Below, piece after piece: positions 38,468-59,460 of a stretch of DNA of 59,460 nucleotides. The notes below the pieces were generated by a model. The model saw only the letters and a program-made list of their open reading frames with translations, did not search any database and was not told the origin of the DNA. Numbering within the stretch: the first letter of the stretch is position 1; the number at the start of each line of letters is the position of its first letter. Made by a program: the position numbers and the translations under genes. The DNA is from Pseudomonadota bacterium (GTDB taxonomy: Bacteria > Pseudomonadota > Alphaproteobacteria > Micropepsales > Micropepsaceae), in NCBI GenBank assembly GCA_021851325.1, contig JAJZDZ010000017.1:1-59460 (forward strand). Direction: 5' to 3'.

Positions 38468-40504
38468 TCAGGAAAGGCTTTGAAGCGCCGAAAAGAGCGC
38501 GGCATGCTCCGAACCTGCCCGATAAAAGACGGGCGGCTGACCAAAGGGCGCAGCAACGCTGACGGCCTGGCCACCCGCATGGGTTTCGCCACTCCAGACG
38601 TGAACCCAATTGGCACCGGCCGGCAGATAGGTTGACCAGTTTGTCCGCCCTTCTTCGATGACCGGCGCTACAAGCAGGTCAGGTCCGTAGAGATAGGCGG
38701 TCTGAATATCATAGGTCTTTGGGTCATCCTCAAAATGCAAGAAGAGGGGTCGCTGAACCGGCAGGCCGGTTCTGAACGCCTCCTGAGATAGGCTGCGCAG
38801 GTAAGGTGCAAGATGAACGTAGATGCGCGTCATCCGCCCGAAATGAGCCAGAACCTCCGGATCCTGATCGATCTGAAGATTTTGCGCGGGCCGATTGCCT
38901 TCATGGCTGCGCATAACAGGAGTAAAAGCGGCCATTTCAGCCCACCGCATCAAGAGTTCAGCTGTTCGCACATTGTCGAACAGGCTTGTATATCCACCGA
39001 TGTCACTGTGATGATAGGCGTTGCCGAGCAAGCCAGACGAAAGCGCCGCGCATATCACTGTTCCGATACCGTCATGACGCGTAAAGTCAACTGATTGGTC
39101 TCCGGCCCACAACAGCGGACAATAGCGTTGCGAGCCGCTATAGCCCGAGCGCATGAAAAATACGATCTCTCCGGTTTTACCTCGGTGCTCTACGGCCTTC
39201 GCATTTACCTCTGCCCATAATACTGGCCAGGCGTTGTGCATCGTCATGCCAGTTTCCCCGGAGGCAAGACGAATATCCGTGGGCAGATATTCGCCAAAAT
39301 CGGCCATCCAGCCAGACAGACCAAAATCGATCATATTGCGCCCAATGACATCCTCTTCGAACCAAGCCTTGGCTTCGGGGTTGGTAAAATCGACAAAACC
39401 ACAGTCGAATTCACCAAAATCCACCGTGTAAACCTCGTCACTGTCGGGGCGTTTGCCCAGAAAGCCGCGCTTCTTGGCCTCGGGAAAGAGCGTTCCATCA
39501 ACGCAGAGATAGGGATTGACGTAGCCAAGTACCTTGACGCCTCGGGCAGCCAAAGCCGCCACCTGCCGATCCAGATCCGGATAACGTGTGCGGTTCCATT
39601 TCCAGTCCCAGAACAGGCGGCGACCGAAAGCGGTCTGGCGCACGCCCACCCAATCCTCGATCCAGAGGCCGCCGATGCGAGCACCCGAGTTCATGATCGC
39701 ATCAAGCCGCGTAAGACTGGCCTCCCCCTCTTTCAAGCCCATGATCGCGCCATTGTAGACCCAATCCGGCAACAGAGGCTGACGGCCAAATCGATCCGAT
39801 AACGCCGTCACCAGATCGGAAAAATGCGGCCGCGACCAGAATTCCACCGCATTTGGTACTTCCCACACCTCGATCTCGTGAAAGCCTTCGCGCGTGAAAT
39901 CAAAAGCGGAATACGCCAGAGTATCAATGTGCAGCGCATATCGACGTGAACTTATGAAGGTCGGCTGGGGATAATAGGTCTGATAATAGTCACCGCCACT
40001 TTTGTTGTGCTGATCAGCACGCCAGGTCAGCAACGTGGACTTGTCTCGTCCATTTCCGGGTTCAGACGTCCAAAGCGGAAATTTCCGTCGGGACAGGTCA
40101 AAATAGGAGAGTTGCTCTCCTCCGCCCCATACATGTTCGTTCGCTTCCGACGTGACCCGAAGCCAGATTCGGTTAATCCCCTGATCCAGAGGCTTGAAGC
40201 AAATGCGGGCATTGGAACCATCTGCCACAAAAGAGAGCTCCACGAGCGGCGCCAGCCCGGGAACTGGTGACAGTCGCACCACAGTCTCGGCACCCTGCAC
40301 AACACATTCGGCGTGGCGCAGAGCAACCCGTTCCACTATATAATCAGAGATGTCAAAGTGTCCCTTCTGCATCGCGATATGCGGCTTACCGACACCGACA
40401 AATAGGAATGGCGTCTCCGGGGAATGCTGAAGAATTTTTTTCCCGTCGAGCGAAAATGTGAATCCAGTACCCGATTGCACAACTACCATGACCATTCCTC
40501 CCAA
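38468..40504 (-). CDS. yihQ: Sulfoquinovosidase, GH31 (YihQ-type)
   Basis: A 678-residue family 31 glycoside hydrolase that releases sulfoquinovose from SQ glycosides such as sulfoquinovosylglycerol. Catalytic nucleophile D402 (W-M-A-D-F-G-E-Y-L-P-T-D) and acid/base D469 (W-A-G-D-Q) are present. The sulfonate-recognition set that separates these enzymes from ordinary alpha-glucosidases is complete: K258, E283, R296, W299 and Y505, the KERWY variant known alongside the QQRWY form of E. coli YihQ. There is no signal peptide, so it is probably cytoplasmic. Start may be M1, M4 or M6. Nearby transporter, receptor and sulfo-ED genes support the substrate. Confidence 0.93.
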   Translation of the reverse strand: MGGMVMVVVQSGTGFTFSLDGKKILQHSPETPFLFVGVGKPHIAMQKGHFDISDYIVERVALRHAECVVQGAETVVRLSPVPGLAPLVELSFVADGSNARICFKPLDQGINRIWLRVTSEANEHVWGGGEQLSYFDLSRRKFPLWTSEPGNGRDKSTLLTWRADQHNKSGGDYYQTYYPQPTFISSRRYALHIDTLAYSAFDFTREGFHEIEVWEVPNAVEFWSRPHFSDLVTALSDRFGRQPLLPDWVYNGAIMGLKEGEASLTRLDAIMNSGARIGGLWIEDWVGVRQTAFGRRLFWDWKWNRTRYPDLDRQVAALAARGVKVLGYVNPYLCVDGTLFPEAKKRGFLGKRPDSDEVYTVDFGEFDCGFVDFTNPEAKAWFEEDVIGRNMIDFGLSGWMADFGEYLPTDIRLASGETGMTMHNAWPVLWAEVNAKAVEHRGKTGEIVFFMRSGYSGSQRYCPLLWAGDQSVDFTRHDGIGTVICAALSSGLLGNAYHHSDIGGYTSLFDNVRTAELLMRWAEMAAFTPVMRSHEGNRPAQNLQIDQDPEVLAHFGRMTRIYVHLAPYLRSLSQEAFRTGLPVQRPLFLHFEDDPKTYDIQTAYLYGPDLLVAPVIEEGRTNWSTYLPAGANWVHVWSGETHAGGQAVSVAAPFGQPPVFYRAGSEHAALFSALQSLS

Positions 40505-40808
40505 GCTGACCGTCGTCTGCGACTTTTCATTCCAGCCGTCATCCGTCTAATGTCACGCGCACCATGCCAATGTTATTCGCCGTTACTCCAGACCCGATTG
40601 AAGCTCTTCCGCAAGGCGTCTTTCTGGCAGGGGCACAACGATCAGGTTATCCTGTCACCAAACGGAGTTATCTCCGTTTCCTCATCGCCGGTTGAACCAT
40701 CGGGGTACAAAACATTTGCATAATCTGGACGTCATCGCTCCGCGCGGCCCGATCGCCAGATCGACACAAAACCAGACACCACGCGGCCTATGAACTCTCA
40801 TCCGCCAA
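40505..40808. promoter_or_regulatory. GH31-MFS spacer with palindrome 40660-40679
   Basis: There are 304 bases without a gene. Positions 40660-40679 form a perfect inverted repeat, AAACGGAG-TTAT-CTCCGTTT. It lies 130 bases past the MFS stop and about 155 bases before the GH31 start, both on the minus strand. It could be the MFS terminator (short T-run) or an operator for GH31. An AT-rich stretch around 40710-40725 may hold a promoter. Confidence 0.4.
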
Positions 40809-42044
40809 CTAGGCGAGTTCTTCCCCTTCTTCGGGAGCCACCGCGACAAGCCGGGGCAACATCACCTGTACCCAGGCCACTCCGAGCAAATAGGACACGG
40901 ATGCCAAAGCCAGAAGCGGAGCATAGCCGTAGCCTGCGCCCAACTCCCAGCCCGCAATTTGCAGAAGTGCTGCACCCGCAAGATTTCCGCAGAAGGCACA
41001 AATACCGATCACCGTTGCCACTGTGGATACAGGTGATATGTCTGCGGCCAGGGCAAAGACGTTGACCGAAAAGGCCTGATGGGCCGCCATCATCACACAC
41101 AGCAGCGCCGTAGCGATCCAGTAATTGTGCACGACCAGTACCATCCAGACCGGCGTCACCAGAAGCGCAGCCCCAAGAAGACTGCCCTTGCGCGCGGCAT
41201 TGAGGCTAACGCCACGCTGCATCAGGTGCCTTGGCACCCATCCACCAACCAATCCGCCAACTGCCATGACCGCCGAAATAATACCGATCGGGGTTCCGTA
41301 TTCAGACATGCTGAGGTGAAAGACGGTATGAAACAAATCCGGTGTCCAAAACATAAACAGCCAAAAGATCTGATCCGATAACACCTTTGCGCCCGCGACC
41401 GTCCATGTACGCTTGTCGCGTAACACCTCGCTCCAGCGCACCTCATGACGCTTCGCAGGTACCTGATGACGGGCTTCCTCGGGAACTTTCCCCAAAGAGC
41501 ACATATACCAGACGGCAACCCAAATAAGGCCGACACCTCCGGTTACCAAAAACGAATTTTCCCAGCCAATCCGTATCGCCAGCCAAGGAATCACTATGGG
41601 GGTCACAAAGGCCGCAGGCGCGCCGGCTGCATTCATGAACCCCAGCGCAAGCGAGCGATCCTCGTTTCGGAACACTGCGGCGATGGTTTTGATCGTTGTG
41701 GGCGTACAAAACGCTTCTGTGGAGCCAAGGAAAATCCGGGCCACGGAGAATTGACTGAGTGTGCGGGCAAAGGCCTGCGTCATTGCCACGACGCTCCAAG
41801 TCCCTACCGAGAAGGGGTTGGCTCGCCTCCAGCCAATCCGATCCACAACCCAGCCAGATCCGAGAAAAGCTACGGCCGAAGCCAGTTGGAACAACGCCGT
41901 CAGTTGTCCGTAGTCGACATCCGTCCAGTGCAGTTGATGCTGAAGCATGGGCTTCAGTAACGCAATGATCTGCCGGTCGGCATAGTTCAGCATATTGCTG
42001 CCGAGCAGCATAATCACGATTAACTTGTTGCGGTTGCTCCACAT
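40809..42044 (-). CDS. MFS transporter, anion:cation symporter-like
   Basis: A 411-residue, 12-helix major facilitator. The N-terminal N-Y-A-D-R-Q-I motif, D-R-I-G-W-R-R loop after helix 2 and the overall pattern match the ACS family (hexuronate, galactonate, phthalate carriers), which bring in anionic sugars with protons or sodium. In this locus the likely cargo is sulfoquinovose or its glyceride, by inference. A TTG start at 42056 is possible; the ATG at 42044 gives the usual short N-terminus. Confidence 0.85.
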   Translation of the reverse strand: MWSNRNKLIVIMLLGSNMLNYADRQIIALLKPMLQHQLHWTDVDYGQLTALFQLASAVAFLGSGWVVDRIGWRRANPFSVGTWSVVAMTQAFARTLSQFSVARIFLGSTEAFCTPTTIKTIAAVFRNEDRSLALGFMNAAGAPAAFVTPIVIPWLAIRIGWENSFLVTGGVGLIWVAVWYMCSLGKVPEEARHQVPAKRHEVRWSEVLRDKRTWTVAGAKVLSDQIFWLFMFWTPDLFHTVFHLSMSEYGTPIGIISAVMAVGGLVGGWVPRHLMQRGVSLNAARKGSLLGAALLVTPVWMVLVVHNYWIATALLCVMMAAHQAFSVNVFALAADISPVSTVATVIGICAFCGNLAGAALLQIAGWELGAGYGYAPLLALASVSYLLGVAWVQVMLPRLVAVAPEEGEELA

Positions 42045-59242: not shown

Positions 59243-59250
59243 GGTCTCAC

Positions 59251-59460
59251 CTACCAGCGCTTTGTCTTCAGATTGTGGACATGAACGTGCTCTCCCTTGC
59301 CAACGCGTTCAACGATGCGGCCGATGTCCTCACCGTATTTGATCACGGTGTCGCCCGGGCTGAGATCGCGCAGCGCGATTTTATGGCCAATGGGCACGTC
59401 CTGCTTGGCCTCAAGCTTAAAATCGCTGTTGTCGTCGGTGATGACACAGAGCATCTGCGT
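59251..59460 (-). CDS. suyA: (R)-sulfolactate sulfo-lyase, small SAF-domain subunit (5' end off window)
   Basis: The frame is open through the right edge, so the N-terminus is missing; an in-frame ATG at 59454 is internal to the domain, not the true start. The visible 69 residues form a SAF domain: D-V-P-I-G-H-K-I-A-L, G-D-T-V-I-K-Y-G-E-D-I-G and the C-terminal H-V-H-N-L-K-T-K-R-W. SAF domains are the small subunits of UxaA-type lyases. It is the first gene of the operon visible here. Confidence 0.85.
   Translation of the reverse strand, partial: TQMLCVITDDNSDFKLEAKQDVPIGHKIALRDLSPGDTVIKYGEDIGRIVERVGKGEHVHVHNLKTKRW

Follow-up and report, generated by a model that had tools for sequence, protein, structure and literature searches.

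The breakdown of sulfoquinovose (SQ) by sulfoglycolysis is commonly depicted as shared between two species, the first releasing a C3 sulfonate that the second then cleaves. Production of SQ is estimated at about ten billion tonnes a year (PMC12890257, PMC10755693; PMC, PubMed Central). In the classical sulfo-Entner-Doudoroff (sulfo-ED) pathway of Pseudomonas putida SQ1, described as yielding sulfolactate from SQ, and of Rhizobium, a sulfoquinovosidase (SQase), an SQ dehydrogenase, a lactonase, a PF00920-type dehydratase and an HpcH aldolase are used, and sulfolactate degraders of the Chromohalobacter salexigens type carry SlcC, ComC and SuyAB. The window analysed here, the entire 59,460-nucleotide contig C48 of a 3.53-Mb genome (98 % complete) from the Micropepsaceae, contains a locus encoding homologues of an SQase, of the sulfo-ED enzymes and of SlcC-ComC-SuyAB, which, judged from homology, would very likely convert SQ to two pyruvates and sulfite in one cell. 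Judged by its FtsA, the host is Rhizomicrobium-like: in the 120 listed of 852 hits, the organism names given are Rhizomicrobium sp., Alphaproteobacteria bacterium or Proteobacteria bacterium.

A comparable tandem has been described in Paracoccus wurundjeri Merri (PMC12421959), where an ED-type cleavage to sulfolactaldehyde and SlcC, ComC and SuyAB are likewise found in one cluster; its authors remark that it is unusual for one bacterium to combine sulfoglycolysis with biomineralisation. That cluster is reported to act on sulfofucose with a PF13378/PF02746 dehydratase, an ABC importer, no glycosidase and no growth of the strain on SQ, whereas the window has an SQ-type short-chain dehydrogenase/reductase (SDR), a PF00920 dehydratase, an SQase of glycoside hydrolase family 31 (GH31), a TonB-dependent receptor and a major facilitator superfamily (MFS) transporter. 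Clusters that join sulfoglycolysis to SuyAB, with predicted complete use of SQ carbon, have also been reported with a transaldolase (sulfo-TAL) upper pathway in Thermotogae and Chloroflexi (PMC9594981), and with a sulfo-Embden-Meyerhof-Parnas (sulfo-EMP)-like upper pathway of isomerase, kinase and aldolase, and GH188 rather than GH31, in actinobacteria (PMC11465081). The sulfolytic monooxygenase (sulfo-SMO) and dioxygenase (sulfo-SDO) routes (PMC9594981, PMC13372026) similarly allow one cell to use all SQ carbon and release sulfite, but there an oxygenase is described as cutting the C-S bond of SQ itself to give glucose, whereas in the window a lyase is predicted to cleave it, and not before the C3 stage. 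Searches of the open-licence PMC literature, of which only one, on SuyR, was aimed at the operator discussed below, turned up no route that joins sulfo-ED to SuyAB for SQ. Full use of SQ by a single cell was already known, and the idea put forward in a first-pass annotation of the window is less new than had been stated because of the sulfofucose/SuyAB tandem, the sulfo-TAL and sulfo-EMP-like SuyAB clusters and the sulfolytic routes.

The reference for classical sulfo-ED was the cluster on a plasmid of Rhizobium WSM4643 (L125; Rhizobium leguminosarum type), which additionally has GabD, TauE and a LacI regulator but lacks SuyAB over the stretch read. SlcC-ComC-SuyAB were compared with those of Methylobacterium oryzae (L124) and Sinorhizobium mexicanum (L123), and SuyAB and its GntR regulator also with those of Paracoccus versutus (L122). 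No sulfo-ED-type or SQase genes are annotated in the stretches from M. oryzae and P. versutus, and that from S. mexicanum has sulfofucolytic-type genes.

Gene content and layout of the locus

The features of the locus are as follows, from high to low positions.

59251..59460, minus strand: suyA, sulfolactate sulfo-lyase small subunit; C-terminal 69 residues, last base of the stop codon at 59251, running off the contig end
58067..59242, minus strand: suyB, sulfolactate sulfo-lyase large subunit (PF04295 and PF20629)
57051..58070, minus strand: comC-like LDH2-type dehydrogenase, predicted (R)-sulfolactate dehydrogenase (PF02615)
56128..57054, minus strand: slcC-like 2-hydroxyacid dehydrogenase, predicted (S)-sulfolactate dehydrogenase (PF02826 and PF00389)
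54317..56044, minus strand: IlvD/Edd-type dehydratase, predicted for 6-deoxy-6-sulfogluconate (PF00920 and PF24877)
about 53500..54303, minus strand: HpcH/HpaI aldolase, predicted for 2-keto-3,6-dideoxy-6-sulfogluconate (PF03328); start inferred, open frame to 54483
52631..53503, minus strand: aldose 1-epimerase, likely SQ mutarotase (PF01263)
51762..52631, minus strand: SMP-30-type lactonase, predicted for 6-deoxy-6-sulfogluconolactone (PF08450)
51001..51765, minus strand: SDR, predicted SQ 1-dehydrogenase (best match in the PDB 9gwu; nine of nine residues)
50229..50990, plus strand: GntR-UTRA regulator, SuyR-like, of the type found beside suyAB (PF00392 and PF07702)
44922..44935, no strand assigned: possible operator GTCTTATAAAAGAG upstream of the TonB receptor gene, two mismatches to the palindrome GTCTTATATAAGAC
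42445..44739, minus strand: TonB-dependent receptor, likely for uptake of SQ glycosides (PF00593 and PF07715)
40809..42056, minus strand: MFS transporter, likely for SQ or SQ glycosides (PF07690)
38468..40504, minus strand: GH31 sulfoquinovosidase (NCBIfam PRK10426; best PDB match 5ohy)

Nine genes form a single minus-strand run at 51001-59460, in the order suyA-suyB-comC-slcC-dehydratase-aldolase-mutarotase-lactonase-dehydrogenase, in which overlaps of 1-4 bases occur at five of the eight gene junctions and the widest gap is 83 bp. The first-pass annotation had read nine nearly overlapping genes and the same enzyme families from the letters alone, and profile matches, or BLAST in the case of suyA, confirmed all of them in place and strand. 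The GntR-UTRA gene, which is convergent to the operon, was absent from that annotation, as was any mention that the locus lacks an aldehyde dehydrogenase. The receptor, MFS and GH31 genes are grouped at 38468-44739 on the minus strand.

The final 127 bases of the window recur, letter for letter, as the opening 127 bases of another contig of the assembly, C26. This contig provides the start and the promoter of suyA, the complete gene corresponding to 95 amino acids once joined across the two contigs. Beyond suyA, C26 matches a contig of the sister genome G023, in which suyA likewise comes first; the region upstream of it was read as containing a large gene of 5-oxoprolinase type and a short, unrelated one.

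Enzymes of the upper and lower halves

The GH31 protein, with a score of 927 bits, exceeded the cut-off of 553 of the NCBIfam model PRK10426, which is titled alpha-glucosidase and, we assume, linked to YihQ. Its best PDB match, 5ohy (985 bits), is presumably the YihQ sulfoquinovosidase of Agrobacterium, and R283, W286, Y491 and D455 are retained; we take the first three to bind the sulfonate and D455 to be the acid/base. By these residues the gene product is a predicted sulfoquinovosidase of the YihQ type, which would free SQ from sulfoquinovosyl glycerol. TonB receptors of a similar kind (30-47 % identical) recur in related loci, several of them adjoining the SQase, and homologues of the MFS transporter are also found near the SQase in such loci.

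Released SQ would be converted to sulfogluconolactone by the mutarotase and the SDR. The best PDB match of the SDR was the SQ 1-dehydrogenase 9gwu, with 275 bits against 208 for the next match. In the comparison with characterised enzymes that the first-pass annotation had proposed, D99, R101, N119, S147, R152, R154, Y160, K164 and Q198 of the P. putida enzyme (PpSQDH) are all retained, that is, nine of nine catalytic and contact positions, whose roles, including those of R152 and R154 in the sulfonate pocket, have been described (PMC12133307). The next-best match, 4lvu, has L and N at positions 152 and 154 and not arginines. When named genomes were scanned with the SDR, 171 relatives were obtained, and the best 80 loci were retained for all counts of SQ dehydrogenase (SQDH) loci given here. 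The nine residues were present in 69 of these 80 and in all 18 that contain suyB, so the pocket marks the SQDH and not the tandem arrangement. Lactonase (PF08450), dehydratase (PF00920) and aldolase (PF03328) are all clustered with the SQ dehydrogenase, as in sulfo-ED; the SMP-30 protein would open the lactone, the IlvD-type enzyme dehydrate the sulfogluconate and the aldolase yield pyruvate and (S)-sulfolactaldehyde.

In the lower half, BLAST aligned the 69 residues of the cut SuyA at 51-71 % identity with the SuyA proteins of Cupriavidus, Methylobacterium, Paracoccus and Sinorhizobium. A search of the genome with the SAF domain model PF08666 gave no match to the cut suyA, the assignment therefore being BLAST-based, and no NCBIfam model matched the sister SuyA at 1e-20. 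The SuyB proteins of the four reference clusters share 67-77 % identity with that of the window. From these four and seven UxaA/GarD paralogues, 68 SuyB-diagnostic columns were derived, of which the window SuyB retains 62. Its relatives in the other loci with suyB retain 42-65, a range lowered by cut rows, and held-out reference SuyB kept 68 of 71-95 columns. The cysteines conserved in UxaA/GarD are gone, except for one shared cysteine at 153, in line with the description of SuyAB as lacking the iron-site cysteines of UxaA/GarD (PMC6336799). A UxaA/GarD sugar-acid dehydratase was ruled out for the large subunit by the diagnostic columns and this loss of cysteines. SuyA and SuyB, although relatives of UxaA/GarD, are two separate chains, as is the case in SuyAB.

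A 2-hydroxyacid dehydrogenase and an LDH2-type dehydrogenase adjoin suyAB, as an SlcC/ComC pair would. SlcC is 60-63 % identical to the gene adjoining comC/suyAB in S. mexicanum and Methylobacterium, and ComC 49-57 % identical to its counterparts there, the higher value being for the LDH2 gene of the Methylobacterium suyAB cluster. The two are predicted to form a racemising pair of opposite stereospecificity, which would convert (S)-sulfolactate via sulfopyruvate to (R)-sulfolactate, to be split by SuyAB into pyruvate and sulfite. Genome searches for sulfite oxidase and TauE gave candidates, none of them assignable. In the locus of alpha proteobacterium AAP38 (L040, 912-1928), a PF03601 gene directly follows slcC and may encode an exporter of sulfite or sulfate; near suyAB of Paracoccus and Methylobacterium there is a gene whose annotation is putative sulfate exporter family, and we take PF03601 to be the same family.

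Recurrence of the pairing and a shared palindrome

A suyB gene of more than 80 % identity adjoins the ED genes in 18 of the 80 SQDH loci, hereafter called tandem loci, a lower bound since several loci are cut by contig ends. The first-pass claim that both halves lie in one operon is borne out by homology in the window, and the pairing is kept, with a shared operator, in these loci. All 18 have the dehydratase and the aldolase, 17 the lactonase and 11 the SQase; six of the seven without SQase have one elsewhere in the genome, and the sister genome G061 has none. In 17 of the 18, suyA-suyB and the available comC-slcC are divergent from the ED genes, the sister locus L023 having all nine genes in one direction like the window. 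In support of the pairing, the distances of SDR and SuyB are correlated across 18 sequences, the window and 17 loci, L023 being omitted as a near-copy (r=0.82, 0 of 999 permutations as high). In the SDR tree (quick method), the window and all 18 tandem loci fell inside one clade of 22 rows. Of its three remaining rows, L024 and L034 had been set aside because contig ends cut them, and L042, counted among the other SQDH loci, also begins at a contig end. Among the 36 genomes of the window's genus that were searched, such a SuyB occurred only in G023 (97 %) and G014 (87 %), and a close SDR only in G023 (93 %). A SuyB was also seen in Niveispirillum cyanobacteriorum.

The G014 locus (L106, 2791-10907) has GabD, GlpD, GlpK, an aldolase (62 %), SuyA, SuyB (87 %) and ComC together. 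No close SQ dehydrogenase was present in the 60 kb examined, the best in that genome being 49 % identical, and the palindrome core was not found in L106 at up to one mismatch. Its GabD is 76 % identical to that of the Rhizobium sulfo-ED cluster.

The GntR protein of the window is 42-46 % identical to those beside suyAB in Methylobacterium, Paracoccus and Sinorhizobium. When dyads were counted upstream of the dehydratase, CTTATATAAG was found in 9 of 17 loci, compared with a maximum of 2 across 30 shuffled sets. The core of the palindrome GTCTTATATAAGAC, at up to one mismatch, had 31 sites in the tandem loci (18/18 loci, 322,666 bp) and 7 in the other SQDH loci (6/62 loci, 1,171,364 bp), three of the latter in L024 and L042; shuffled tandem loci had a mean of 0.35 sites and a maximum of 2 in 20 rounds. 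The palindrome lies before suyA or the dehydratase gene in 13 of the 18 tandem loci, and also before GntR/SQase, TonB receptor, MFS and GlpK genes. The window genome has one perfect 18-bp copy, directly upstream of suyA on C26, and the 14-mer GTCTTATAAAAGAG at 44922 is identical to one upstream of the TonB receptor gene of L131. A GntR-UTRA gene and a common palindrome before suyA, as in a SuyR-type regulon, are thus both present, the window's suyA box being on C26.

The sulfolactate clusters, which have a related GntR, also carry the palindrome before suyA: it is perfect in Methylobacterium and has one mismatch in S. mexicanum and two in P. versutus. None was found at up to three mismatches in the Rhizobium sulfo-ED or Cupriavidus stretches. 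A scan of the window's own genome at two mismatches gave 8 strand matches against 18 for a reversed-pattern control, so only the perfect C26 site and the site matching L131 were relied on. In five relatives scanned at one mismatch, motif and control were equally frequent in AAP38 (8 each), and the control was absent from the other four; a consensus promoter scan was no better than shuffles. Because the palindrome is found at suyA, dehydratase, SQase, receptor and GntR promoters as well as in sulfolactate clusters, a sulfolactate-type GntR regulator likely controls the entire route, with GTCTTATATAAGAC, by co-occurrence, as its likely binding site. The protein would bind before suyA and, with a weaker match, before the receptor gene, and the whole route would be induced by a C3 intermediate, for example sulfolactate.

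The palindrome was also seen in other settings. In S. mexicanum (L123), copies at 8974 and 11637 precede the sulfofucolytic-type aldolase/lactonase genes and suyA, which points to a single regulator of the sulfofucolytic tandem as well. The locus of Acidocella facilis ATCC 35904 (L085, 2542-19000) has sulfo-ED genes, SQase, SlcC- and ComC-like genes and a thiamine pyrophosphate (TPP)-dependent enzyme of 546 amino acids, which is acetolactate-synthase-like and below all cut-offs shown; there is no SuyB in the 20 kb of this locus. The TPP gene is preceded, at a distance of about 20 bp, by a palindrome with one mismatch, and its enzyme is possibly another means of cleaving a C3 sulfonate. The boxes before the S. 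mexicanum aldolase and the Acidocella TPP gene suggest repeated capture by the regulator.

Elsewhere in the window, the interval between receptor and GntR genes (45417-48822, minus strand) contains esterase, NAD-dependent epimerase-like and phytanoyl-CoA dioxygenase-like genes, the latter two with 86-88 % identical copies in the sister contig L023 and not seen in other tandem loci. A bacterial class A RNase P RNA (311 bits) was found at 35426-35802 on the minus strand, with fts/mur cell-division and peptidoglycan genes to its left.

Alternative readings and the sulfolactaldehyde step

The reading of the sugar as SQ is supported by enzyme families and identities. Were it sulfofucose, the 4-epimer, the locus would be another tandem sulfofucolytic cluster like that of P. 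wurundjeri Merri, with which it shares the logic of SDR, lactonase, dehydratase, aldolase, SlcC, ComC and SuyAB, and in which a sulfolactaldehyde dehydrogenase is reported to be missing as well (PMC12421959). Sulfofucose was rejected on the dehydratase family and on identities. The dehydratase is of PF00920, which points to the SQ type, and not of PF13378/PF02746, for which there was no match among 19 scanned proteins of the locus and its border. Compared with the Rhizobium sulfo-ED cluster, the SDR, the aldolase and the lactonase show 66, 67 and 51 % identity (dehydratase 75 %), against 33, 47 and 36 % for the S. mexicanum genes. A GH31 SQase is present, and the SQases of E. coli and Agrobacterium are reported to be inactive on a sulfofucoside, so that sulfofucose appears highly improbable. 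Just as improbable is a role of the upper genes in the use of a sugar acid without a sulfonate (arabinonate, fuconate or galactonate), with a separate sulfolactate operon beside them. NCBIfam does label the dehydratase an L-arabinonate dehydratase, with a score over the cut-off, and for the closest aldolases in the PDB the annotated substrates are non-sulfonated keto acids. However, the same label is given to the dehydratase of the Rhizobium sulfo-ED cluster, the SDR retains the sulfonate pocket, and the two halves are in one operon and, in relatives, share one operator and one clade.

The first-pass annotation had also proposed a full route to two pyruvates. Both halves are real homologues, but no gene for oxidation of sulfolactaldehyde is present in the window, and the clustered GabD/SlaB-type dehydrogenase of sulfo-ED was thus not found in the locus; (S)-sulfolactaldehyde would have to be converted to (S)-sulfolactate by a GabD-type dehydrogenase encoded outside it. 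Contigs C53 and C12 each begin with an aldehyde dehydrogenase gene cut by the contig end, but these two were ruled out as the missing upstream gene because C26 overlaps the window end exactly. The halves might accordingly be uncoupled in the host, SQ carbon stopping at the C3 sulfonate and SuyAB serving external sulfolactate, in favour of which there is no linked dehydrogenase and the only close GabD is unlinked. Against this, the nine genes form a single run behind one perfect operator, and a GabD-type gene follows slcC in 6 of the 18 tandem loci (L027, L033, L043, L056, L058 and L068), with a partial GabD match at the end of L031, beside GlpK. Each of the 14 tandem genomes searched has a GabD-type gene somewhere. 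Genes for a GntR protein (69 % identical to that of the window), GabD, a TonB receptor, SQase and an MFS transporter form one group in AAP38 and in a Niveispirillum metagenome-assembled genome (MAG). In AAP38, whose record carries no MAG label, glycerol kinase and dehydrogenase homologues accompany them, and the group is on the same 241-kb contig as the tandem cluster, the gene set with SQase and GabD covering about 25 kb. A Caulobacteraceae MAG has a looser GntR-GabD-receptor-SQase grouping (GntR 66 %). Strain Merri, moreover, is reported to have made sulfolactate without a recognisable linked sulfolactaldehyde dehydrogenase (PMC12421959). Uncoupled halves are thus very unlikely, if marginally less so than the other two alternatives.

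Several results weigh against a complete SQ-to-sulfite route under one regulator. The genome has 13 matches to PF00171 (aldehyde dehydrogenase), none of them on C48 or C26, and none was seen upstream of suyA among the listed frames of the sister contig. The only close GabD (C30:10049-11497), 60-65 % identical to operon-linked GabDs, is in an unlinked housekeeping setting and best fits succinate-semialdehyde dehydrogenase (SSADH) models. ComC scored 182 bits on the NCBIfam L-sulfolactate dehydrogenase model, below the cut-off of 500, and no sulfite dehydrogenase was recognised among the five PF00174 matches in the genome, three of which were looked at, one being MsrP and two of no assigned type. 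Five of the 18 tandem loci (L026, L028, L029, L030 and L035) have no box at up to one mismatch before suyA, their boxes being only before receptor, MFS, SQase or GntR genes, and the two-mismatch site at 44922 is not significant alone (at least as many matches in 5 of 100 shuffles). The correlation between SDR and SuyB distances can also stem from shared host descent, and support for the 22-row clade is only moderate (SH-aLRT, an approximate likelihood ratio test, 88).

With these points taken into account, the SQ-to-sulfite reading is retained as very likely. We favour, with rather less assurance, the view that a sulfolactate regulator has captured SQ catabolism, so that one GntR and GTCTTATATAAGAC would define a regulon from SQase to SuyAB, including sulfolactaldehyde oxidation and induced by its own C3 intermediate, in an overlooked clade of single origin, whose members would each degrade SQ by sulfoglycolysis as far as pyruvate and sulfite. 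The SQ-to-sulfite reading can be tested directly, given AAP38 as a named strain and the shared operator. If it is true, one cell finishes the job that sugar-splitting bacteria usually leave to a second species, and the inference of sulfonate cross-feeding from genomes would change. Recurring Alphaproteobacteria, and MAGs filed as Gammaproteobacteria, would then return the carbon and sulfur of SQ via sulfoglycolysis and a lyase without a partner.

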